NCBI RefSeq assembly: GCF_000507245.1
Contig: NC_023035.1
Span: 1,589,501-1,653,500 of the forward strand
Direction: 5' to 3'
DNA length: 64,000 nt
Source of the DNA: Salinispira pacifica
GTDB lineage: Bacteria > Spirochaetota > Spirochaetia > DSM-27196 > Salinispiraceae
A model generated the notes under the pieces. The model was not told the DNA's origin and made no database searches. It worked only from the letters and a program-made list of their open reading frames with translations. Shown here one piece after another: positions 1,721-13,791 of this stretch (positions within the stretch are counted from its first letter, which is position 1; each line of letters begins with the position of its first letter). The position numbers and the translations under genes were made by a program.

Positions 1721-2568
1721 AATTCACCCCCTTGAGCATCGTACTGATTATTCTGGCAGCGGCGGCCGGTTTTATTCTGATATGGAAACAGGTGAACGGC
1801 CTCACAACTGCCTACACCCGGCAGCGAAACGCTTCGCTGTCCTCGGTTCCCGAAACCGATCAGCAGATCACCCGGGCCGACCTGGACGGGCTGCCCCCGG
1901 CTCTGCAGAGGTTTTTCGATTATTCGCAAGTTGTGGGAACACCACGGGTGCGCCATTTCTCTGTCGATTTCAGCGGAAGCATGCGGATGGAAGAGGACGG
2001 CGATTGGCTTCCCATCCGGGCCCGTCAGCATACTTTTGTAGATGAGGGGCGCAGGCTGTTTCTCATGAAGATGAAATACCGGGGACTTCCCATGGTGGGG
2101 TATCATCATTATTCGCCGGGGGATGCATACATGACCATCCGCATTATGGATCTGATCACGGTTGTACATAATCAGGATGACTACATGATCAAAGGGGAAA
2201 CGGTCACCTGGTTCAACGATCTGTGTCTCATGGCTCCCGGGGCTCTGCTGGATGCGGATGTGCAGTGGGAGGCGATTGACTCCCGCCAGGTGAGAGGCCG
2301 GCTCACACGCAACGGCGTGACAGTGGAAGCGGTGCTCACCATTGACGATAATGGGCGCCTGGTGAACTTTGTATCGCCGGACCGCTATGCGGCCAATAAC
2401 GACGGCAGTTATGACAATGTGCCCTGGTCCACTCCCATGCACGGTTTTGAGGAGGTGAACGGATACAAGCTCTCAACTGAAGGCTCGGGTATTTGGCATT
2501 ATCCTGACCGGGAGAATGAGTATATCCGACTGAAGATTGAAGATGTGTTGATCAATCCGGCGAAGTAG
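1717..2568 (+). CDS. DUF6544/DUF6920-like membrane-anchored protein
   Basis: A 283-residue protein with one N-terminal hydrophobic segment (residues 5-24) and a soluble domain beginning with LPPALQRFFDYSQVVG at about residues 54-69. That block and the later GALLDADVQWEAID stretch match my recollection of the DUF6544/DUF6920 family, whose biochemical role is not established. The rest faces either the periplasm or the cytoplasm, anchored by the single helix. It is coupled to the upstream MarR gene by a 4-base overlap and its 3' end overlaps the convergent MFS gene by 17 bp. The family assignment comes from memory of the motif pattern, not a search. Confidence 0.6.
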   Translation: MKFTPLSIVLIILAAAAGFILIWKQVNGLTTAYTRQRNASLSSVPETDQQITRADLDGLPPALQRFFDYSQVVGTPRVRHFSVDFSGSMRMEEDGDWLPIRARQHTFVDEGRRLFLMKMKYRGLPMVGYHHYSPGDAYMTIRIMDLITVVHNQDDYMIKGETVTWFNDLCLMAPGALLDADVQWEAIDSRQVRGRLTRNGVTVEAVLTIDDNGRLVNFVSPDRYAANNDGSYDNVPWSTPMHGFEEVNGYKLSTEGSGIWHYPDRENEYIRLKIEDVLINPAK

Positions 2569-3874
2569 GTGATTGGTTCTTTTGGCCCGGCTCTTGGTTG
2601 ATTCGGCCGGGCCTCTGTTCGTCACGGCCCGGCATCTGTCTGCTACGGCCGGGCGCATCCATGTTCCGACTGGGCTTCTGTCTGTTACGGGCCGGCATTT
2701 GTCTTTTACGGCCGGGCTCATCCATGGCAAACAGCAGCACTGCGGCGGATATCAGCCCCGCCGATGCAGCCGTCAGCGGTGCTGCCGGGAGGCTCACTGC
2801 CGCGGCTACTGATCCGGCAATCAGGGGGCCGGTGAGCCGGCTGGTATCGGTGACAAAACGCCATATACCCAGGAACTCGGCTGCCGCGTTCTTCGGGGCA
2901 AGGTCTGAGCTGATGGTCATGTTGATGCCGCTGCCCAGCCCGTTGGAAAGGCTCATGAGAAGGTAGACCCCGGCCAGAGCCGCCGGAGTGAGAGCAAGAG
3001 GCATGAGGGCCATGCTCAGGGCAAATCCCAGGGTGCAGGGAACCGCCGCCCATTTGCGACCCGCCCTGTCCAGGGTAATCCCTGCGGGCACCACCATTGC
3101 GGTTTCCACCATTCCCCCGGCACTGGTAAAGCCTCCGATCAACAGGGCGGACATGCCGATGCTGTCGGCCCAGAGGGGGAATATCAGATTCCGGGAAATC
3201 CGCAGCAGTTGAAGACCGCCGATACCGATCATGGCCGCAACAATGTTCCGCCCGTTTTTCGCAAAGGTTTCCTTAAGCACCGATGCGGCGGGAGCCTGGC
3301 CGGATTCCAGGTAGCTTCCGTCCTTCATCATCACCAGAAGTAGTACCAGCGCCGATGCGAAAAGGAAAGCCTGTACGCCGTACAGCACCCGGAATCCCAG
3401 AAACTGGATAATCAGTCCGCCCAGCGCAGGGGTGGCGATCCGTGCAACCCTCATGATGCCTCCCATAAAGGCCAGGGTCCTGCCGCGGTAGCGCCGGGGA
3501 ATGTTTTTTCTGATATATGCCAGCCTGCCGATTCCCCATGCCGACACACACATTCCCATGAAAATGCCGATACCCAGCAGCTGCCAGGGCCGGGTGGCCG
3601 CCGCCTTGAATATCCCGGTGAGAACCAGCCCCCCAACCGCGGCGATCATGAAGGGCTTCTCCCGGATCTTACCCCCGATCCAGCCTCCGGGCAAATCGAA
3701 AAGGAGGCTGCCGATACCGTTGCCCGCGGCAATCAGACCGATCATTGCAACCCCGGCTCCCAGATCCCTGGACCAGAGAACATTGAACGACATGGTGAGG
3801 GATGCGCCCAGCTGCACCAGGAGACTGGGGAGGTAGATGGCCAGACTGGTTCGGATGATTTCCCGGTTTTTCAT
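2552..3874 (-). CDS. MFS transporter with a heptapeptide-repeat tail
   Basis: A 440-residue major facilitator superfamily protein with about 12 hydrophobic segments and the loop-2-3 signature region around DLPGGWIGGKIREKP. Substrate unknown; drug or sugar efflux is plausible. I start it at the ATG at 3874 because the 29 residues of open frame upstream look non-membrane and cover the operator. A TATACT box sits only 8 nt before this ATG with no ribosome binding site, so the mRNA may be leaderless. The last 54 residues are not transporter-like: seven degenerate copies of a PGRxRQx heptapeptide (2570-2716) that should hang in the cytoplasm. The operator at 3945-3964 lies about 70 bp upstream. 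Confidence 0.85.
   Translation of the reverse strand: MKNREIIRTSLAIYLPSLLVQLGASLTMSFNVLWSRDLGAGVAMIGLIAAGNGIGSLLFDLPGGWIGGKIREKPFMIAAVGGLVLTGIFKAAATRPWQLLGIGIFMGMCVSAWGIGRLAYIRKNIPRRYRGRTLAFMGGIMRVARIATPALGGLIIQFLGFRVLYGVQAFLFASALVLLLVMMKDGSYLESGQAPAASVLKETFAKNGRNIVAAMIGIGGLQLLRISRNLIFPLWADSIGMSALLIGGFTSAGGMVETAMVVPAGITLDRAGRKWAAVPCTLGFALSMALMPLALTPAALAGVYLLMSLSNGLGSGINMTISSDLAPKNAAAEFLGIWRFVTDTSRLTGPLIAGSVAAAVSLPAAPLTAASAGLISAAVLLFAMDEPGRKRQMPARNRQKPSRNMDAPGRSRQMPGRDEQRPGRINQEPGQKNQSPTSPD
2570..2716 (-). repeat. Seven tandem 21-bp coding repeats (PGRxRQx)
   Basis: On the minus strand the end of the MFS gene encodes PGRKRQM, PARNRQK, PSRNMDA, PGRSRQM, PGRDEQR, PGRINQE and PGQKNQS in direct succession, seven 21-bp units drifting from one consensus. 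The unit is in frame, so copy-number change would not break the gene. Confidence 0.8.
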
Positions 3875-3888: not shown

Positions 3889-3944
3889 GCAGTATTTCCC
3901 CGGGACGGCACCCAACGGCGCTGTGAAAAAGGACCTCCGAATAG

Positions 3945-3964
3945 TTTGACCACCTGGTCACATT
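3945..3964. promoter_or_regulatory. Operator-like site, copy 1 (TGACCA-CC-TGGTCA)
   Basis: The 20-bp sequence at 3945-3964 contains 6-bp inverted arms TGACCA and TGGTCA separated by two bases. Its exact reverse complement occurs at 5771-5790. This copy lies 71 bp upstream of the leftward MFS gene. The size and symmetry fit a TetR-type dimer site, but no TetR gene is present in the window. Confidence 0.6.
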
Positions 3965-4124
3965 CGCCGGGAGGGTTTAATTTTGCCGGTCCGGGAGCTT
4001 GGCTCACGGGGCACGGGGCACGGGGCATGATCTGCTCCCTCCGTTAGAAATATCAACACTTAAAATCCTGAGTAATTTGATAAAGAACTTGCGGCACGGT
4101 ATCCTTATAGTTGGGAGAAGTACT

Positions 4125-5177
4125 ATGCGAAAAGCACATATCCTTTTGGTGGATGATGATAATAGCATTATAGAACATATGAGGCTCATACTTCAGGATT
4201 ATTACCGTGTGAGCACCGCTTCCAGCGGGGTGCAGGCCATCCGTGCTGCAATGTCCCAGGACGCACCTGACCTGATCATTCTGGATGTGCTGATGCCTTC
4301 CATGGACGGGATGGAAACCTGCATGGCACTGAAGAATAATGCTCTGACCAGGCACATCCCAGTGATATTCCTTACCGGGATTGAGGATCAGCAGAAGGCC
4401 GTTGAAGGCTTCGCAGTGGGGGCTGCGGATTACATCCGAAAGCCTATCAATAAAGACATCGTGAGAGCCCGGGTGAACTCTCAGCTGCGGCTCTTCAACG
4501 AGGCACGGCACCTGGAAGAACTGGTCCAGGAGCGCCTTACAGAAACGGTAAAAGCCCAGGGCGAAGTGATCCAATGCCTGAACCGAATCTGCGAACAAAG
4601 AGATTACGAGCCGGTGGAGCACACCATCAGGGTGAGCAAATACACCGGTATTATCGCCAAACACTACGGATTGAAGCCGGAAATTATTGAGATACTCAAG
4701 CAGGCCTCCAAACTCCACGATATCGGGAAGGTGTACCTTCCCGACAGACTCCTGGGCAAAGTGGGTAAGCTGAGCGATGAAGAGCGTGAAGAGATGAAAA
4801 AGCATACCGTATACGGCGAAGAGATACTTGCCGACGGAGAAACCACTCTCATGCGAAACGCCTGTCAGATTGCCGGGAACCACCATGAGCGGTGGGACGG
4901 AAAGGGTTATCCCCGGGGAACTTCCGATACGGATATCCCCCTGGCTGCCCGGATGGTGGCCTTGTCTGACGTGTTCGATGCCCTGACCAGCGTCCGTCCT
5001 CACAAAAAAGCCTGGGCTCTGAATACGTCCCTGGCATATATCCGAAAGGAAAAGAACGCACATTTCGACCCCCAAGTGGTGGATGCCTTCGAACGGGGCC
5101 TGAATGAGATTAAAACAGTGTACAAGACTGACCGGGAAAAGATACAAGAAGAGATATCACAAGAGAAAACAGGCTGA
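4125..5177 (+). CDS. Response regulator with HD-GYP cyclic-di-GMP phosphodiesterase domain
   Basis: A 350-residue two-domain protein. The receiver domain (residues 1-120) has the acidic pocket DDD at 10-12, phosphoacceptor D54 in LILDVLMP, and K106 in YIRKP. After a linker comes an HD-GYP domain with the HD pair at 198-199 (KLHDIGK), HHE at 253-255 and GYP at 261-263, all key residues present, so it should hydrolyse cyclic-di-GMP when phosphorylated. The ATG at 4125 is chosen because GGGAGAAG lies just upstream; the open frame runs further back but without a binding site. The thioesterase gene follows after 13 bp, probably cotranscribed. The cognate kinase is not adjacent. Confidence 0.92.
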   Translation: MRKAHILLVDDDNSIIEHMRLILQDYYRVSTASSGVQAIRAAMSQDAPDLIILDVLMPSMDGMETCMALKNNALTRHIPVIFLTGIEDQQKAVEGFAVGAADYIRKPINKDIVRARVNSQLRLFNEARHLEELVQERLTETVKAQGEVIQCLNRICEQRDYEPVEHTIRVSKYTGIIAKHYGLKPEIIEILKQASKLHDIGKVYLPDRLLGKVGKLSDEEREEMKKHTVYGEEILADGETTLMRNACQIAGNHHERWDGKGYPRGTSDTDIPLAARMVALSDVFDALTSVRPHKKAWALNTSLAYIRKEKNAHFDPQVVDAFERGLNEIKTVYKTDREKIQEEISQEKTG

Positions 5178-5190
5178 ACAGGAGAAAAAG

Positions 5191-5616
5191 ATGTCCCGCT
5201 GGAAGCACCCCGACCCAATGAGCATGTTGGCCGAAGCCAATAAAAATACCGCCATGGAAACATTGGGCATAGAAATTACCTGCATTGACGAAGACGGCTT
5301 ATGGGGCGAAATGCCCGTGGATAACCGGCACAGGCAGCCGGCAGGATTACTCCATGGCGGAGTAACCTGCGTGCTGGCGGAAACCCTGGGCAGCTACGGT
5401 TCATGGCTTTTGGTGGATTCAGAAAGATATCAGGTTGTGGGCCAGCAGATCAGCTGCAACCATCTCAGACCCGTACGAGAGGGGCGGGTGAAGGCGTTCG
5501 CCCGGACCGTCCATGTGGGACGGCGCAGCCACCTCTGGGATATCAGCGTATACAACGGCACGGAAAAGCTGGTGGCTACAAGCCGGCTTACCGTGGCAGT
5601 GGTGGACCGGCGCTAA
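5191..5616 (+). CDS. Hotdog-fold thioesterase (PaaI/MenI-like)
   Basis: A 141-residue hotdog protein. The signature is the HGG motif at 55-57 inside QPAGLLHGGVTCVLAETLGS, with E64 as the likely catalytic acid of the PaaI/DHNA-CoA thioesterase group. It probably hydrolyses an acyl- or aroyl-CoA thioester; which one cannot be read from sequence. The start ATG at 5191 has AGGAG 7 bp upstream and follows the HD-GYP gene by 13 bp. There is no sequence link between a thioesterase and cyclic-di-GMP signalling, so cotranscription may be incidental. Confidence 0.85.
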   Translation: MSRWKHPDPMSMLAEANKNTAMETLGIEITCIDEDGLWGEMPVDNRHRQPAGLLHGGVTCVLAETLGSYGSWLLVDSERYQVVGQQISCNHLRPVREGRVKAFARTVHVGRRSHLWDISVYNGTEKLVATSRLTVAVVDRR

Positions 5617-5770
5617 AGAAACGCCACCATAAAGGCCGACATAAAAGCCGACAGAAAAGCCGCCGCAGAAGGCAACCAGAAAAGCAGCCAGCAGACCGCG
5701 ACACAGCCGGAGACCGCGACACAGCCAGCAGACCGCGACACAGCCGGGCCGAAAAAAAGCACCCCTAGCT
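5617..5770. repeat. Repeat-rich spacer with three copies of a 16-mer
   Basis: AGACCGCGACACAGCC occurs at 5693-5708, 5711-5726 and 5730-5745. The preceding bases are built from AAAGCCGACA-like words. No gene is supported here; one open frame reads as a basic RDTA-type repeat but has no start or family. Confidence 0.7.
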
Positions 5771-5790
5771 AATGTGACCAGGTGGTCAAA
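5771..5790. promoter_or_regulatory. Operator-like site, copy 2, inverted relative to 3945-3964
   Basis: Exact 20-base reverse complement of 3945-3964, containing TGACCA-GG-TGGTCA. It lies upstream of the rightward gene at 5881, mirroring copy 1 upstream of the leftward MFS gene. A single unseen repressor could therefore control the outward-facing genes on both sides. Confidence 0.6.
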
Positions 5791-5880
5791 TTTAATAGGG
5801 GCTTTATTTCCCGATAAATTTGGTAGATACTTATCCCAGAGAAGTTTCTTGATCTGCAAATCAATTCCCCGGGGGTGTGT

Positions 5881-6600
5881 ATGTCTGTTATATCGAGTCT
5901 GGATTTCCGCAATAACAGGAAGCAACTGTTTACATCTTATATGCTACGTCTACTCGGGGTGGGGCTGTTCGGTGGATGTCCAGCCAACCTTCACAGGCGT
6001 TGTATTCTGATGATGGGGATATCACCCGGGCTCACCTGGACGGTCATTGAATCCGATTTTGCCGCACTGGAGAATTTTCCGGATATGGATACGCCCATGG
6101 AAGGAAGCATCGGCTTTGAGGGAGTTGAAGCGGAGCTGCGGATCGCCGTTTCCTTGTCTCCGGAAGGCGGCGGTTGGTGGTTCAAAGTAAGGAAGAGAGT
6201 AATGAAGGAAACAGAAAAGGTTGCCCGGGCGGTTTCCCGGATTGAAGCGCTTCTGAAAGTGGAGCGCCGGGAATACGAGGATGCGATTCGGGCGGAGAGT
6301 GAGGACCGGCCTCCTTCGGTGGAGGATAATTTTACCGGGATGATTATTGAATGGGATTTGCCCGCAGTCATAGAGGAGTTTTTGGGGGAGATACAGAAGC
6401 GCACACCTGCATCCATGGATGAACTTCTGGATTTTGTGCACAACCGTACCCTTGAGCTGGAGGAGCAGAGCGGCAGTATCCGGGGAATAACAGATGGAGA
6501 GCCTGCTGCAGCATCCATTTCGAAGCAGCTCTTTGTGTGGTATGTGGCCCAGGACAGGATTATCCAGGCCATTGAGTCCCCGGATTTACCTGCAGAATAA
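5881..6600 (+). CDS. Hypothetical protein with helical C-terminal half
   Basis: I do not recognise this protein. From the ATG at 5881 it has 239 residues; GGGGGTGTG lies just upstream. The first ~40 residues (basic, with a CPANLHRRC segment) look unlike the rest, and a start at 6010 or 6013 (MMGISPGL) is equally possible. From there it has a short beta-like part (SIGFEGVEAELRIAVSLS), then a charged helical stretch with heptad character at about residues 105-145. No signal peptide, no membrane segment, no cysteine cluster. It stands alone, downstream of the second operator copy, and may share regulation with the MFS transporter. Confidence 0.55.
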   Translation: MSVISSLDFRNNRKQLFTSYMLRLLGVGLFGGCPANLHRRCILMMGISPGLTWTVIESDFAALENFPDMDTPMEGSIGFEGVEAELRIAVSLSPEGGGWWFKVRKRVMKETEKVARAVSRIEALLKVERREYEDAIRAESEDRPPSVEDNFTGMIIEWDLPAVIEEFLGEIQKRTPASMDELLDFVHNRTLELEEQSGSIRGITDGEPAAASISKQLFVWYVAQDRIIQAIESPDLPAE

Positions 6601-6830: not shown

Positions 6831-9092
6831 ATGAATGTCGAACAACAGCTTGATCGGATCCAAAAGGTGCACGGAATTGATTTCGGATTGTTTGTGCTGG
6901 CGGTTCATGCCTTTGCAGAGGGGGTAATGAATGCCAGGATGGGGAATTTCGAGGAGCACAAGTATCTGGATGCCAACGGCAAGGAGCTTGACCCCAGTTT
7001 TTACAAGAAAGTGGGGATCTACGCCGATTTTCTGACCGCAAGCTACGGCTGGAATACCTTTCATGAATTCCGATCCATAAAAGATACCTACAGTTTAAGC
7101 AATGAGGTGCGTCATAAATTTGCCCAGCTCACCATGGATGAGGTGCGCAGCAGTATTCACTCCCTGCGGAAGTTCTGCCGTTTGAGCCGGATCAGTTCAC
7201 CTGTACTTGAGTCACTGGGGGATGAGCTGGAGGAGTGGCAGAGTCGGGTGAGTGCCGACGAGCTGCAGCAGGAGCTTGAGTTTCTCAAAGGCCATAATGT
7301 CCGCCTTATTACCCAGTTGAAGGAAGTAAAAGAGAAACAGAAGGAGTCCGCCGGGCTGGCTCAGGACGCCGGGAGGCTGCGCCATGAGCTTGAAGAAAAG
7401 GAGCGCAGGCTTGCCGAGATTGAGGCAACATCCGCAGACCGAAAGGACCGTATAGATGAGCTTCGCCGGGAGAGGAGGGAGCTGCAGGAGCGCCTGAAGG
7501 AGACAGAGGAGAAACAGGGTAAGCTTGAGAAGCTTCGAGCCGCTGAGGATGAGGTTCTTCGGATGTCACTTCTCACCCGCAGCAGGCGGGATTACGAGGA
7601 GAGTTTTTTCCGTCTTTCCGATGAGCAGGCTTCCGCCCTGAAGGCGATACGCGGAGGGGGGAGCTATCTGATTAAGGGCGGAGCGGGTAGCGGAAAATCT
7701 GTGGTGCTCCTCCAGGCTCTGCGGGAGCGGATAGAGGATGTCCGTTCCCAGACGGATATGTTTGCAGACCCCGACACTCTCATGGATGCGGGTTTTGCCC
7801 TGTTGACCTTCACCCGTACCCTGGTGAAGTACAATGAGTATGTAAGTTCAATTCTAAAGATTGCCTCCCAGCCGGTGTATATGGCAACGGTGGATCAGTT
7901 TATTCATGATCTGTTCAGGCGGGAGTATCCTGATGTGGGTATCAGATACGATAAAAAAGATGTGGTGCTTGAGGAGCTGGCTGAGCTGCGGGATCTGCAC
8001 GATCCTTCGGACTCTCTGAAGCTGGAAGATGAGGAGCTTTTCACGGAGATTGATGCCTATATTTGGGGTTACGCCCTCAGCCGGGAAGAATATGTCGACG
8101 CCATGGTGTCCCGTTCGGGACTGCGGAAGCGGCTGAACGGATCCTCCAGGGAGCTGGTGTGGATGATTCAGCAGGATCTTGCCCGTAAGCTGCCTGAGCT
8201 GATGTTTGTAACACGGAATCTTGCATGCAGACTGCTTCTTGAGAGTGGCGGTAACCGAGCTGCCGACAGGGTGTTCAGCGCGTTGTTCATAGACGAGGTG
8301 CAGGATCTTGATCCTGTGGTACTGAGGCTGATGAGTTTCCACGCCCGGGATGTGGTGCTGGCAGGAGATACGGGGCAGTCTATTTACGGGCTGCGTTCCC
8401 CCTATGTGCGCGCGGGGCTGGATTTCCGGGGCAGAAGCCGGGTGTTAAAGACGAATTTCAGAAATACGTTGCCCATGGTGAGGCTTGCCCAGTCGTTCCG
8501 TTCCAGGATGGCATCAGCATTGCATGAGAATACAGAACAGTCGGCGGGTTCTGCAGCAGGAGATGAGTATGTATCGGCTGCCCTTCGTCCCGGCCCTCCG
8601 GTGGAGTTTTTTCAGGGTTCGAAGGATGCGGCCAAGCAGGTGCTTGTTGAGCGGCTTCACTACTATCTGGATGTTCTGAATTACGATGCGGAGAATGTGT
8701 GTATTATCGCCCCCTACACCCGGCTTTTGGGTCATTTGAGAGATAAGGTTCTGGCTCCGGAAGGGATTGACGGGGTGGATGTGAAGCGAGGCAGTACGGA
8801 CGGCGATGCCCGGGAGTTTGATTTTGAAGCGAGCCGCGGAGTGCGGCTGGTAAGTATGCACTCGGCAAAGGGTCTGGATTTTCCAGTGGTGATTCTGTAC
8901 GCACAGCATTTTGAGGCACCGGGGGGAAGTGATTTGAGCGATGAACTGAGAGAGGAGATCAAGGGGAATTTGCTGTATGTAGCTGTTACCCGGGCTCTTG
9001 ATCATGTTGATGTAATTGCCCTGGATGGTTTCGGAACCGCTGGTGCGGAGAAGCTGCTGCTGGATTCGATTCATGAACAGCAGGCTGTGTAG
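6831..9092 (+). CDS. UvrD/Rep-like superfamily 1 helicase with unusual N-terminal domain
   Basis: A 753-residue protein. Residues ~1-130 form a helical domain I cannot name. Residues ~160-245 are a strongly charged coiled coil. The SF1 ATPase core follows: Walker A GGAGSGKS (~283-290), DEVQD motif II (~487), AGDTGQSIYG motif III (~510), TNFRN motif IV, VSMHSAKGLDF motif V (~674) and YVAVTRALD motif VI (~716). All key residues look intact, so it should be an active ATP-dependent DNA or RNA translocase. The N-terminal coiled-coil architecture differs from repair UvrD/PcrA. It precedes the helicase-HNH pair by 188 bp on the same strand and may belong to it, but its base composition is closer to the chromosome than theirs. 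Confidence 0.85.
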   Translation: MNVEQQLDRIQKVHGIDFGLFVLAVHAFAEGVMNARMGNFEEHKYLDANGKELDPSFYKKVGIYADFLTASYGWNTFHEFRSIKDTYSLSNEVRHKFAQLTMDEVRSSIHSLRKFCRLSRISSPVLESLGDELEEWQSRVSADELQQELEFLKGHNVRLITQLKEVKEKQKESAGLAQDAGRLRHELEEKERRLAEIEATSADRKDRIDELRRERRELQERLKETEEKQGKLEKLRAAEDEVLRMSLLTRSRRDYEESFFRLSDEQASALKAIRGGGSYLIKGGAGSGKSVVLLQALRERIEDVRSQTDMFADPDTLMDAGFALLTFTRTLVKYNEYVSSILKIASQPVYMATVDQFIHDLFRREYPDVGIRYDKKDVVLEELAELRDLHDPSDSLKLEDEELFTEIDAYIWGYALSREEYVDAMVSRSGLRKRLNGSSRELVWMIQQDLARKLPELMFVTRNLACRLLLESGGNRAADRVFSALFIDEVQDLDPVVLRLMSFHARDVVLAGDTGQSIYGLRSPYVRAGLDFRGRSRVLKTNFRNTLPMVRLAQSFRSRMASALHENTEQSAGSAAGDEYVSAALRPGPPVEFFQGSKDAAKQVLVERLHYYLDVLNYDAENVCIIAPYTRLLGHLRDKVLAPEGIDGVDVKRGSTDGDAREFDFEASRGVRLVSMHSAKGLDFPVVILYAQHFEAPGGSDLSDELREEIKGNLLYVAVTRALDHVDVIALDGFGTAGAEKLLLDSIHEQQAV

Positions 9093-9280
9093 GCCGCGGA
9101 AGCAGCAACAGGTTTTATGTTCACAACTGGTTTCGGGTTTTCGGTGAGTTCAGGATTGATGCTAAACCAGGATTCGCCGGTGGGGTATTTGCTGAACTTT
9201 GCCGGGAAGAGGGTTGTGTTGAAGCGGTTGGTGTTGGGGTATTCATGACGACGTTTTCTAATAATTCAGGATGGTTTTAG

Positions 9281-12200
9281 ATGGCAACCTCTCCGTATTT
9301 CGAGCATTTGTTAACCAAAGCTATTGAGGAGAGAATTCATTCTCATCCTGATCCAGCTTTGGCTGCTGTTGAACGAATTGATGAAGATGCTTTCACGTCC
9401 CTTGCCCAACAATATGCTCGTTCACTGCTGAGACTTGCCTTTTCTGAAACCGGTACCTTGGAACGCTCACGAGAGTTGTTGTCTCGGCTTCAAAATCTCA
9501 TTGCTGAATATATCCCAGACTGGCAGCCAGATGAATTGATAGGTTCCGATAGCGGTAAGCATGAACTTCTGCGTGCATTGTTCTCTCCTCAGGATACATC
9601 CAAGAATCAGGTGAAAGAGCGGGTTCATAACGAGGTTCCCGTTTTAGGTTTCACTCTCCCTGGCTTATTTACAGGAACGAATTCTGCATTATCATTGGTA
9701 GATGAATTAAAGAGAGAAATACAAAGTGCAAGTGAGATTAATCTCATTATATCATTTATCCGGTGGTCAGGGTTGAAGCTCCTTTTGCCGTCACTGGAGC
9801 AGGCAGTCCAGCGAGGTGCTCCGGTGAAAGTGTTGACAACTGTGTATCTGGGCGCAACTGAAAATAGATGTATTCAGGAATTTTCCCGTATAGGTGCTCA
9901 ACTGAAGATTTCGTTCAATACGTTCCGTGGCCGGCTGCATGCTAAATCGTGGATTTTCCAAAGAGATAATAATTTCAATGTAAATGGTTCATACGATGGT
10001 AATCTTGGGACAGCTTACGTCGGTTCAAGCAATGTAAGCCGCGATGCGCTTCAGGATGGAGCAGAATGGAATATTAAAATCACACAACGGGAAGTCCCCG
10101 GAGTGTACTCTGAACTTAGAGAAAGTTTCTCAGCTCTCTGGGAAGATCCTGAGTTCGAGATGTACTCAGAATCTGATAATGAGCGAGTTAAAGAGGCATT
10201 AGCCGCTGCACCTTATATTAAGGACTCATTGCGTTTAAGCGACCTGCCTGCTGACCTGCGCCGACAGGTTTTAGATTATTATAAAAACAGGAAAAACCGC
10301 TCTTACAGTGAGACTGTGGAGGAGAGTATCGGCAGCCTTGTTCGCCCTTTCGCATTTCAAGAAGAAATACTGGAACGAATACGGTCGGAACGTAAGGTGC
10401 ATAACCGTTTCAGGAATTTAGTTGTAGTCCCAACAGGTGCGGGGAAAACGATGATTGCCGCCTTTGATTATAAGCGAATTTGTGATGAGGCGAATTCTCA
10501 GCCCAGACTTCTATTTATTGCTCACAGAGAGGAACTGCTTTTTCAAGCCCGGCGAAGCTTCAGACAGGTGCTGGGCGGATATAACAGCTTTGGTGAGATC
10601 TGGAAGGCCGATGTTGAACCATCAAAATGGCAGCATGTTTTCGCAAGTATTCAAACAATCCATAGAAGACGAGATGAATTGCTCCAAAGATGGCCAGATT
10701 TGGATTGGTTTGAATATGTTGTTATTGATGAAGCCCATCATGGAGCTGCCGAATCGTATCGATTTGTGGTTGATCAGATAAAAGCCAAATGGTTATTGGG
10801 TCTTACCGCTACTCCTGAGAGGATGGATCTGAGTGATATTTCCCAGGATTTTGAGGGTCGGTTTGCCGCGGAAATGCGTTTAGCTGAAGGGATTCGAAAA
10901 GGCTTGCTCTCACCTTTTCATTATTTTGGAATTGGGGATGATACACCGGATTTGAGCTCAGTAAGGTGGAACGGCAAGTATGTACTTAATGATCTTGAGC
11001 GGAAGTTGGTGAATGAACCCTATGCAGATGCAGTTATTTCATCGGTAAAAAAGATCACTGCTGATTACCGTCAAGTTCGTGCGATTGGGTTTTGTGCGAG
11101 TATTGTTCAGTCGGAGTTTATGGCCCGGCATTTTTCTCAACACGGACTCCAGTCAATCTCATTGAGTTCTGTGAGTCCTCAGGTCGATAGGGAACGGGTA
11201 AAACAGATGCTGACTGATGGAGATATTCAGTATGTGTTTACTGTCGATCTCTTTAATGAAGGTGTGGATATTCCCGCGGTTGATACCGTGCTATTTTTAC
11301 GCCCTACAGAGAGTCTTACGATTTTTCTTCAACAGCTGGGACGGGGGCTTCGAAATTTTCCGGGCAAGGATGTATTAACAGTAGTTGATTTTGTGGGGAA
11401 TGCTCACCAAAGCTATGACTTTACCCATAAATTTCGAGCAATGCTAGGCTGCACCAGCACACAAGTCCGGGGAGAAATTGAAAATGATTTTCCATCACTA
11501 CCTACGGACTGTGCAATTGTCTTGGATGAAAGCAGTCAAAACCGAATTCTTCAGCACATCGAGATGCAGATCCCCAAGACTCGTTCCCGACTACTGGATC
11601 TTATCAATCAGTACGACAATATCACGCTTCCAACGTTTTTGCATGATAGCGGCTTTGACCCGGAATTTCTGATCTACAAAGCCGGTCTCTGGTATCAAAT
11701 TCAAGAAGAGTTGGCGAATCCGGAGTATTTTCCCTCGAAGATGGAAACTATCTTCAAAGAGTTCATCCTGAACGCTGTTCTCCAGCTGAACAGTATCTCT
11801 GTATGCCAAAGATGGAAAGATGCAATCACCGCCAGTTTACATACACAAACTCTATCCAATGACGGTACCTGGCTTTGTTACGAAATTCTTCGGAATAGGA
11901 AGGGCAGCCAAAGTCCGTGGAAACGGCCTGAGGATCTTTGGGCATGGCTCTTCTCTAATTCTAAGCGAATCCAAGAACTGATGTTCTGGCTTTCATATCA
12001 GGAAGATAGAATCGAAGTGATGGAAGAACCTATGTCTGATCTCACACTACCAGGTGCTGCAGTGTTGAAGCATTTCGCCGCATATACCTGGCCCGGAATC
12101 AAATGGGCGTTTAGACAATCGGACTGGGAAAAATCTCCTGTAGAGCAGGGTGGGGTAAATCAGATAAAGGACAATGAAGGGAAAATCATTCTCCGATACC

Positions 12201-12553
12201 TTATGATTACAGTTCACAAGAAAGAGAACCTGTTCAGTTCCGAAACCATGTATCAGGACTGGGCGTTAAACAGAGATGTGTTCCAATGGGATTCGCCGAA
12301 CAGTTGGACGCCGTCCAAAGGCCAGGGGAAAACCTTTTTACAGCAAATTGAACGCGGTGTGCCTCTCTATGTATTTGTTCGAGAGACAAAGCAGGATGAA
12401 TACAGACGTGCTTTACCGTTTATTTTTATGGGACCGGTGCACATTGTACCAGACAGCGCGAAAGGAGAGTATCCTTTCAGTTTGCGTTTGCATCTGGAAA
12501 AAACTATGCCTGTAAGCGAATTTCGCAGGTTATGTATGCCAGTTGCCGGATAA
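9281..12553 (+). CDS. PLD-SF2 helicase-DUF3427 protein, candidate defence effector
   Basis: A 1090-residue multidomain protein. A phospholipase D-like domain (~residues 115-290) carries HAK (~221) and GSSNVS (~249), one HKD half-site. The SF2 helicase follows: Walker A VPTGAGKT (~384-391), DEAH in VIDEAHHG (~484), GLTATPE (~507), NEGVDIP (~660) and QQLGRGLR (~685). The last ~350 residues fit the DUF3427 C-terminal domain often fused to such helicases. Expected activity is ATP-driven DNA translocation with nucleic-acid cleavage. The gene is visibly A+T richer than the flanking rbs genes and is followed 107 bp later by an HNH nuclease gene. The start has AGGATGG 7 bp upstream. The family call is good; the role in defence is inferred. 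Confidence 0.85.
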   Translation: MATSPYFEHLLTKAIEERIHSHPDPALAAVERIDEDAFTSLAQQYARSLLRLAFSETGTLERSRELLSRLQNLIAEYIPDWQPDELIGSDSGKHELLRALFSPQDTSKNQVKERVHNEVPVLGFTLPGLFTGTNSALSLVDELKREIQSASEINLIISFIRWSGLKLLLPSLEQAVQRGAPVKVLTTVYLGATENRCIQEFSRIGAQLKISFNTFRGRLHAKSWIFQRDNNFNVNGSYDGNLGTAYVGSSNVSRDALQDGAEWNIKITQREVPGVYSELRESFSALWEDPEFEMYSESDNERVKEALAAAPYIKDSLRLSDLPADLRRQVLDYYKNRKNRSYSETVEESIGSLVRPFAFQEEILERIRSERKVHNRFRNLVVVPTGAGKTMIAAFDYKRICDEANSQPRLLFIAHREELLFQARRSFRQVLGGYNSFGEIWKADVEPSKWQHVFASIQTIHRRRDELLQRWPDLDWFEYVVIDEAHHGAAESYRFVVDQIKAKWLLGLTATPERMDLSDISQDFEGRFAAEMRLAEGIRKGLLSPFHYFGIGDDTPDLSSVRWNGKYVLNDLERKLVNEPYADAVISSVKKITADYRQVRAIGFCASIVQSEFMARHFSQHGLQSISLSSVSPQVDRERVKQMLTDGDIQYVFTVDLFNEGVDIPAVDTVLFLRPTESLTIFLQQLGRGLRNFPGKDVLTVVDFVGNAHQSYDFTHKFRAMLGCTSTQVRGEIENDFPSLPTDCAIVLDESSQNRILQHIEMQIPKTRSRLLDLINQYDNITLPTFLHDSGFDPEFLIYKAGLWYQIQEELANPEYFPSKMETIFKEFILNAVLQLNSISVCQRWKDAITASLHTQTLSNDGTWLCYEILRNRKGSQSPWKRPEDLWAWLFSNSKRIQELMFWLSYQEDRIEVMEEPMSDLTLPGAAVLKHFAAYTWPGIKWAFRQSDWEKSPVEQGGVNQIKDNEGKIILRYLMITVHKKENLFSSETMYQDWALNRDVFQWDSPNSWTPSKGQGKTFLQQIERGVPLYVFVRETKQDEYRRALPFIFMGPVHIVPDSAKGEYPFSLRLHLEKTMPVSEFRRLCMPVAG

Positions 12554-12660
12554 TACACAGAAATTGAGCGTAGCAGAGTTCACTTGAAACGGTAGTATGA
12601 GGGCTTCGATCAACACATTTTATTCCGGATGTAATTCAACCGAAGGAAAGTTTAGCGAGT

Positions 12661-13791
12661 ATGCATAAGGGAAATGTAATTTTTCACGGAGAACAGCTTC
12701 CATACTCTTCACGAATTTGCATTAGCTGTCTTCAGCAGATGTTTAAGCACACCGCTGCATCGTATAAATATATCTATTTTCTTTCGATCCTTGATGTACT
12801 GGAAGAAAATAGTTTTGAATCCCCTGTGATAAGCCTCGATGATGTACTGGTAAGGATGTTGGTTAATGCCTGGTATCCTCATGTGTATTTCAAGCTCAAC
12901 TTTGGAGTGGGTGATAGAATCGCCCACACAATTGATGCGCTTTGTTTGGCAGAAATAGAGCTGCCCATTCAAAGCAATAGCTCAAATGAGCTGTCGATGA
13001 TTATTCGATCAAAGAAATATCAGAACAATAATCTATTAAATATGGTTCCATATCGGATATTGTCGCCATTTTTCAGAGATGAATTACAGGGAATCAAGGA
13101 TTCAGATCGAAACCGACTGATAGCCCAGCTTGCCGAACGACTGTTTGAAAATCGCCGACCGCTTTATATGTTTATCGATAATGCAACCAAGGTCATTGTT
13201 CACCATGATTGGATGTTGTATCTATACGAGAATATCGGACTGGTGAGGGCTTTCACAGCATGGAATTACCTCGATTATATGCAGCGTCGGAACCCTTCTG
13301 TCCCCAATATCAAGGATAAACTGTTTCCCCCGGTCGCCCGAAATAGTCTGTCTAATCAAACCACATATTGGAAGATTGCTTTAGGACATAGCAGGATCCG
13401 TTGTATTTACTCCGGGAATATACTCAATGAAAATACTATGAGCCTGGACCACTTTATTCCCTGGTCCTTCGTCGCTCATGACCAAATGTGGAATTTGCTG
13501 CCTGTTGAAAAGAATATTAATTCCTCAAAATCAAACAGATTGCCTTCCATGAAAAAGTATCTCAATCCGTTTATTGAGCTTCAGTTCGCAGGTCTTCAGG
13601 CAATTCACAGAAATTCCAATGACAATGTGTGGAGGAAGGTCACAGAACCCTATGTTTCGGATCTAAATATTCCAAAAGACAATCTCTTCCAGATAGAGAG
13701 TTTCGGCAGGGCCTTAAAACAGACCATAATACCCCTTGAAACGATTGCAAGGAATCGCGGCTTTGCTGGAGATTGGGTATATAAAGGCTAA
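12661..13791 (+). CDS. HNH endonuclease-domain protein paired with the DUF3427 helicase
   Basis: A 376-residue protein. The N-terminal part (TAASYKYIYFLSILDVLEEN) resembles a leader of some HNH proteins that I recall only as a pattern. The nuclease centre is at ~247-290: RCIYSG, then SLDHFIPWSFV, MWNLLPV and NSSKSNRLP. The DHxxPWS form is also found in Cas9-type HNH domains, but no other Cas feature is present. The metal-binding D/H and the downstream N residues appear intact, so DNA cleavage is likely. AAGGAAAG precedes the ATG at slightly long spacing. Low G+C like the helicase, 107 bp downstream of it on the same strand; the two probably form one transfer unit. Confidence 0.8.
   Translation: MHKGNVIFHGEQLPYSSRICISCLQQMFKHTAASYKYIYFLSILDVLEENSFESPVISLDDVLVRMLVNAWYPHVYFKLNFGVGDRIAHTIDALCLAEIELPIQSNSSNELSMIIRSKKYQNNNLLNMVPYRILSPFFRDELQGIKDSDRNRLIAQLAERLFENRRPLYMFIDNATKVIVHHDWMLYLYENIGLVRAFTAWNYLDYMQRRNPSVPNIKDKLFPPVARNSLSNQTTYWKIALGHSRIRCIYSGNILNENTMSLDHFIPWSFVAHDQMWNLLPVEKNINSSKSNRLPSMKKYLNPFIELQFAGLQAIHRNSNDNVWRKVTEPYVSDLNIPKDNLFQIESFGRALKQTIIPLETIARNRGFAGDWVYKG

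Follow-up and report, generated by a model that had tools for sequence, protein, structure and literature searches.

We identified a ~64-bp intergenic element in Salinispira pacifica, found only in this genome among the genomes examined, whose core palindrome is most likely the operator of a TetR-family repressor whose gene lies at 2,092 kb, as judged from sequence. Two copies of this element, W1 and W2, are present in the window, i.e., the whole 64,000-nucleotide stretch of DNA that we analyzed. The feature is real, although somewhat odd, and the identity of its core is well supported; its function is what we infer from its sequence and position. We propose, with what we consider to be an even chance of being right, that this putative TetR represses its own gene, and that each of the remaining copies marks a gene border with an operator-bearing terminator, at which bound TetR would form a roadblock and which would also serve as a sink for the repressor.

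The sequence TTTGACCACCTGGTCACATT is present as an exact copy at window positions 3945-3964 (+) and 5771-5790 (-), in inverted orientation, bearing out the original prediction of two exact inverted 20-bp copies; allowing up to three mismatches, the window contains these two matches to the 20-mer versus 0.01 expected from 100 shuffles. Our search of the whole genome (3.78 Mb, a single contig of 3,782,798 bp) identified eight matches to the core TGACCANNTGGTCA and seven to the oriented 20-mer AATGTGACCANNTGGTCAAA, these seven being identical, with no match to the reversed control in either case. The 20-mer copies are located at genome positions 1,110,615, 1,593,445 (W1), 1,595,271 (W2), 2,092,525 (the TetR copy), 2,431,610, 2,431,682, and 3,310,762. 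This search, proposed together with a search for a TetR gene near other copies, thus located one of the seven, at 2,092 kb, at such a gene. The eighth match to the core, at 2,725,742, was treated as a chance site since it lacks the flanks and lies within an ORF. A near match at 590,948 was rejected as a further copy, as it is inside an ORF, and none of the remaining near matches contained an element-like hairpin, judged from their flanking sequence alone. A covariance model (R1) built from six copies retrieved all of these and a portion of the seventh copy, and among the 150 of 416 candidates scored with it we found no further convincing copies; its weak matches corresponded either to the ORF site at 590,948 or to ordinary terminators.

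The 14-mer is present in 50 of 392 genomes of the phylum, counting that of S. pacifica, which is the only genome among the matches listed to contain more than two copies. The exact 20-mer gave five scattered matches in genome_contigs and one in viral contigs, which is approximately the number expected by chance, and no match in the other three genomes belonging to the family; on these grounds, we rejected an origin that is viral or otherwise wider.

The core is a 14-bp palindrome of the TGACC-N4-GGTCA type, with GG as its central two bases in five copies and CC in two, and with an asymmetry (AATG on one side and CAAA on the other) that is kept in all seven. The spacing of this palindrome, TGA-N8-TCA, led us to reject a CRP site, where the spacing is N6. 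Examination of the 24 bp on each side of the 20-mer demonstrated an identity among copies of 0.47 on the right and 0.41 on the left, compared to shuffle means of 0.28 and 0.27, values that 0 of 2,000 shuffles reached; identity was near background past 30 bp, and the ten bases directly to the left of the 20-mer were not conserved above shuffles (296 of 2,000). As the flanks are alike over ~64 bp and not farther, we class this sequence as a small dispersed element, i.e., a putative operator inside a predicted terminator, and the seven copies, compared at the sequence level, suggest descent from one ancestral element of this length. In the window, the W1 copy spans 3922-3985 (-), with its core palindrome TGACCACCTGGTCA at 3947-3960, a weak outer stem of 5 bp (CCTCC/GGAGG), and a T-run on the leftward strand. 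The W2 copy spans 5750-5813 (+), and its core (5775-5788) occupies the loop of a hairpin arranged as an A-run, CCCCTA...TAGGGG, and a T-run; this core lies 158 bp past the thioesterase stop codon, and the next gene has its first start codon (5875) 86 bp farther on.

In our folds, the palindrome is enclosed as the loop of a longer hairpin, and in the five copies that pass the terminator test described below an A-run usually precedes this hairpin and a T-run follows it. W2 and, less strongly, W1 show this arrangement, a point absent from the original prediction. The strongest fold was that of the 3,310,762 copy (-36.3 kcal/mol over 64 bases), with -24.7 kcal/mol for the 1,110,615 copy and, for W2, -22.1 kcal/mol on the + strand and -23.8 kcal/mol on the - strand. 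We scored each site for an enclosing terminator by excluding the central 22 bases and requiring a stem of at least 5 pairs, at least four of them GC, plus a T- or A-run, using 2,500 sampled intergenic positions in 400 kb as the background. With a test that was defined after the sites were seen, and with related copies that are not independent, 5 of 7 copies passed at a stem of at least 5 bp versus 1.6% of the background, 4 of 7 versus 1.1% at 6 bp or longer, and 2 of 7 versus 0.7% at 7 bp or longer. The five were W1, W2 (with a stem of 6 bp containing four GC pairs), and the copies at 1,110,615, 2,431,682, and 3,310,762, with W1 passing at the loosest setting only and failing at 6 bp; the TetR copy, the 2,431,610 copy, and the chance site all failed. 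Most copies can therefore be predicted from their sequence to form an intrinsic terminator (a GC stem followed by a T-run), with loops of at least 22 bases that are unusually long for terminator hairpins. The arm-pairing score was high for the 3,310,762, 1,110,615, and W2 copies (reached by 0%, 0.8%, and 3.4% of random positions, respectively), moderate for 2,431,682 (8.6%), and ordinary for W1, the TetR copy, and 2,431,610. Pairing between a site's own arms (13 to 37.5) is equaled by pairing with the arms of other sites (cross-site mean 23.4), and we therefore found no site-specific compensation; since the arms are interchangeable, and since pair counts were not above shuffles (215 of 500 reached the observed percentage), the stems represent shared sequence and not evidence of selection site by site.

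The reading of the core as a TetR-type operator, made in the original prediction, is supported both by the copy at the TetR gene itself and by TetR genes located beside the palindrome in other spirochaetes. Of the 14 TetR genes in the S. pacifica genome, one (2,092 kb) has an element copy directly before its first ATG, and the 20-mer supplies the -35 hexamer of a predicted promoter on the gene strand, TTGACC-17-TAATAT, matching the sigma-70 consensus at 5/6 and 4/6 positions. The protein encoded by this gene is the only one of the 14 that carries an STN...SKGxLF helix, and has the highest mean HTH score against four reference proteins (100.0, with the next of the 14 at 93.25); it is only 24-25% identical to its closest relatives in the order. 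Within the order, its best homologue is found in G004, next to the twin sites TGACCACCTGGTCA and TGACCGGGCGGTCA. Twin TGACCN4GGTCA sites are also present upstream of TetR genes in G022, at both of the two loci encoding homologues, and in G368, where the TetR gene adjoins them; the G022 loci were chosen because they encode homologues, and G368 because of its twin sites. Our scan of 35 loci containing the 14-mer (29 identified in the phylum scan plus six others) revealed a TetR HTH 48-238 bp from the palindrome in seven, all within the 29 phylum loci, and five of these seven HTHs contain STN...[SA]KG[ST][LI]F; in the other 22 phylum loci there was no TetR HTH within the ~3 kb or less examined. 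The repressors of G004, G022, and G368 resemble the one described here in having this type of 14-bp palindrome beside the TetR gene and an STN...KG[ST]LF recognition helix. In these genomes, where ABC transporter genes accompany several of the TetR genes, the twin sites immediately precede the TetR gene or operon, whereas the S. pacifica copies are seven in number, dispersed, and mostly in terminators away from promoters.

The order of genes given in the original prediction was correct. An MFS transporter gene (2552-3874, -; Pfam MFS_1, 1.4e-34), with a likely ATG at 3874, is read leftward and has the W1 core 72 bp upstream. Between the two sites are a response regulator gene with an HD-GYP-type domain (4125-5177, +; Pfam Response_reg 7.4e-26 and HD_5 9.6e-35) and a 4HBT thioesterase gene (5191-5616, +; Pfam 4HBT 2.6e-17), and to the right is a gene encoding a 241-aa protein (5875-6600, +; first start codon at 5875), which has no Pfam match and no match among 60 other genomes searched. 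A sigma-70-like match at 4077-4105 precedes the response regulator gene without overlapping W1, and we regard it as weak because the scan gave four such matches where 3.0 were expected. Imperfect short tandem repeats occur near both element copies, at 4000-4030 (GGGGCAC units) and at 5690-5757 (GACCGCGACACAGCC units). Farther along the window, genes encoding a UvrD-like helicase, a PLD/ResIII/DUF3427 helicase, and an HNH endonuclease occur consecutively at 6831-13791, with G+C dropping to ~0.44 from 9.2 kb, and this row of genes is a possible defence island.

Four of the seven copies are located in convergent gaps, where there is no promoter to serve. The 1,110,615 copy is flanked by a Crp/Fnr-type gene and, on the opposite strand, a tRNA; the 2,431,610 and 2,431,682 copies, in direct orientation and 72 bp apart, share a gap that has a methyltransferase gene on one side and a QueG-like gene on the other; and the 3,310,762 copy is flanked by a mannosidase-like gene and a GH94 gene. 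The gap occupied by W2 is tandem, those of W1 and the TetR copy are divergent, and all non-window copies other than the 72-bp pair are single. A convincing -10 was found for only one of the seven, the TetR copy; the second best, beside the 2,431,610 copy, matches at 4/6 with a spacing of 18 and a -35 of 4/6, and neither W1 nor W2 has a -10 at 15-19 bp better than 2/6. The concern that the motif might be both common and unrelated to promoters is thus half borne out, in that the motif is rare genome-wide but most copies are away from promoters.

These positions bear directly on whether the copies form an ordinary TetR regulon, i.e., promoter operators repressing the MFS, hypothetical (241-aa), and TetR genes, with the hairpins being merely neighbouring terminators. 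The overlap of the TetR-gene copy with a -35, the promoter operators of relatives, and the location of W1 and W2 at 72 and 86 bp 5′ of the start codons of outward genes are all consistent with such a regulon, and a promoter role for W1 and W2 may still apply given this last point. A classical regulon, however, has most of its sites at target promoters, which is not what the convergent gaps and the poor -10 matches at W1 and W2 indicate, and the asymmetric flanks, invariant in all seven copies, exceed the needs of a dimer site; we consider this explanation unlikely, although a real alternative. The earlier claim that the window copies are operators of two outward promoters is weakly supported at best. 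The discrete repeated unit with homologous flanks is itself a trait of REP- or MITE-type sequences, and the element could be a dispersed palindromic repeat of this kind, spread by copying, whose operator-like core was inherited or arose by coincidence and whose role is at most that of a terminator. Flanks shared over ~64 bp and nothing farther, an invariant asymmetric 20-mer, and arms that can be swapped between sites would all follow from copying; set against this, there are seven copies only, we noticed by eye neither a target-site duplication nor a mobile gene adjacent to any of them, and one copy is exactly at the promoter of a TetR of the right subclass, so that we view this origin as doubtful, although it deserves consideration.

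The original prediction also raised the idea that the segment between 3945 and 5790 is invertible, to which the exact, inverted 20-bp copies at its ends lend themselves. This idea found no support: none of the 29 window proteins scanned matches a recombinase family, the other copies are single or direct rather than inverted pairs flanking segments, and the inverted symmetry is explained by the hairpins, which together make inversion extremely improbable. Dispersed sites outside promoters and a stable nested RNA hairpin could instead indicate a site acting at the RNA level, through an RNA-binding protein, or one that organizes the chromosome, through a nucleoid-associated TetR protein such as SlmA. 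Seven sites are few for such a role, the loop, read in one and the same orientation, is AGGU in some copies and ACCU in others, and in four loci outside the window no Rfam family was found at the copies, with only tRNAs elsewhere in these loci; we hold a role of this kind to be very unlikely.

We therefore return to autorepression combined with operator-bearing terminators. TetR, we infer, would bind all of the copies: at the promoter of its own gene it would repress itself, and at every other copy it would sit within a gene-end terminator, forming a roadblock to RNA polymerase arriving from both sides. These other copies would soak up repressor rather than act as promoter switches, and in the window the two copies mark both borders of the response regulator-thioesterase unit. 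Occupancy of the copies by TetR, if real, would make this a natural case in which a DNA-binding repressor is positioned within intrinsic terminators, so that roadblocking and hairpin-dependent termination could interact; without such occupancy, the element would still be a compact example of how a small dispersed repeat can carry a TetR operator along. That a single ligand-sensing TetR uses such dispersed elements to control read-through and RNA 3′ ends at convergent pairs, and not starts, is a larger claim that we think rather improbable. Inverted DNA-uptake sequences in Neisseria act as terminators, and are an example of a short conserved word within terminator hairpins; those sequences, whose function is in DNA uptake, vastly outnumber the element described here, which has a TetR-type palindrome and seven copies.

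A precedent for the roadblock is provided by LacI in E. coli, where a DNA-bound repressor can halt RNA polymerase during elongation and the stalled enzyme is then terminated by Mfd (PMC4132739). It is by analogy with this system, which used engineered operators, that the step from operator to roadblock would be taken here, where natural operator copies lie within predicted intrinsic terminators. REP sequences and other dispersed stem-loop families (PMC12306157, PMC2267715) are likewise intergenic palindromic repeats, some located at gene 3′ ends; unlike these families, the element here has only seven copies, and its core resembles a TetR operator and lies within predicted terminators of the A-run/T-run type. 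In the portions available of the open-licence papers to which our literature search was limited, we found no description of TetR operators inside terminators.

Our survey also identified other repeats in the genome. The sequence TGACCATCTGGTG[TC] occurs at G000:1021119, 1025221, 1029188, and 1033198, with a spacing of ~4 kb, and these copies probably lie in repeated genes. Four copies of TGTCCAAATGGCCA are present within ~162 kb, at G000:2074331, 2177607, 2217573, and 2235891. In addition, an identical, hairpin-rich stretch of ~65 bp is present at two places in the genome sample, in L125 near 16392 (+) and in L129 (-), and is perhaps the end of a mobile element.
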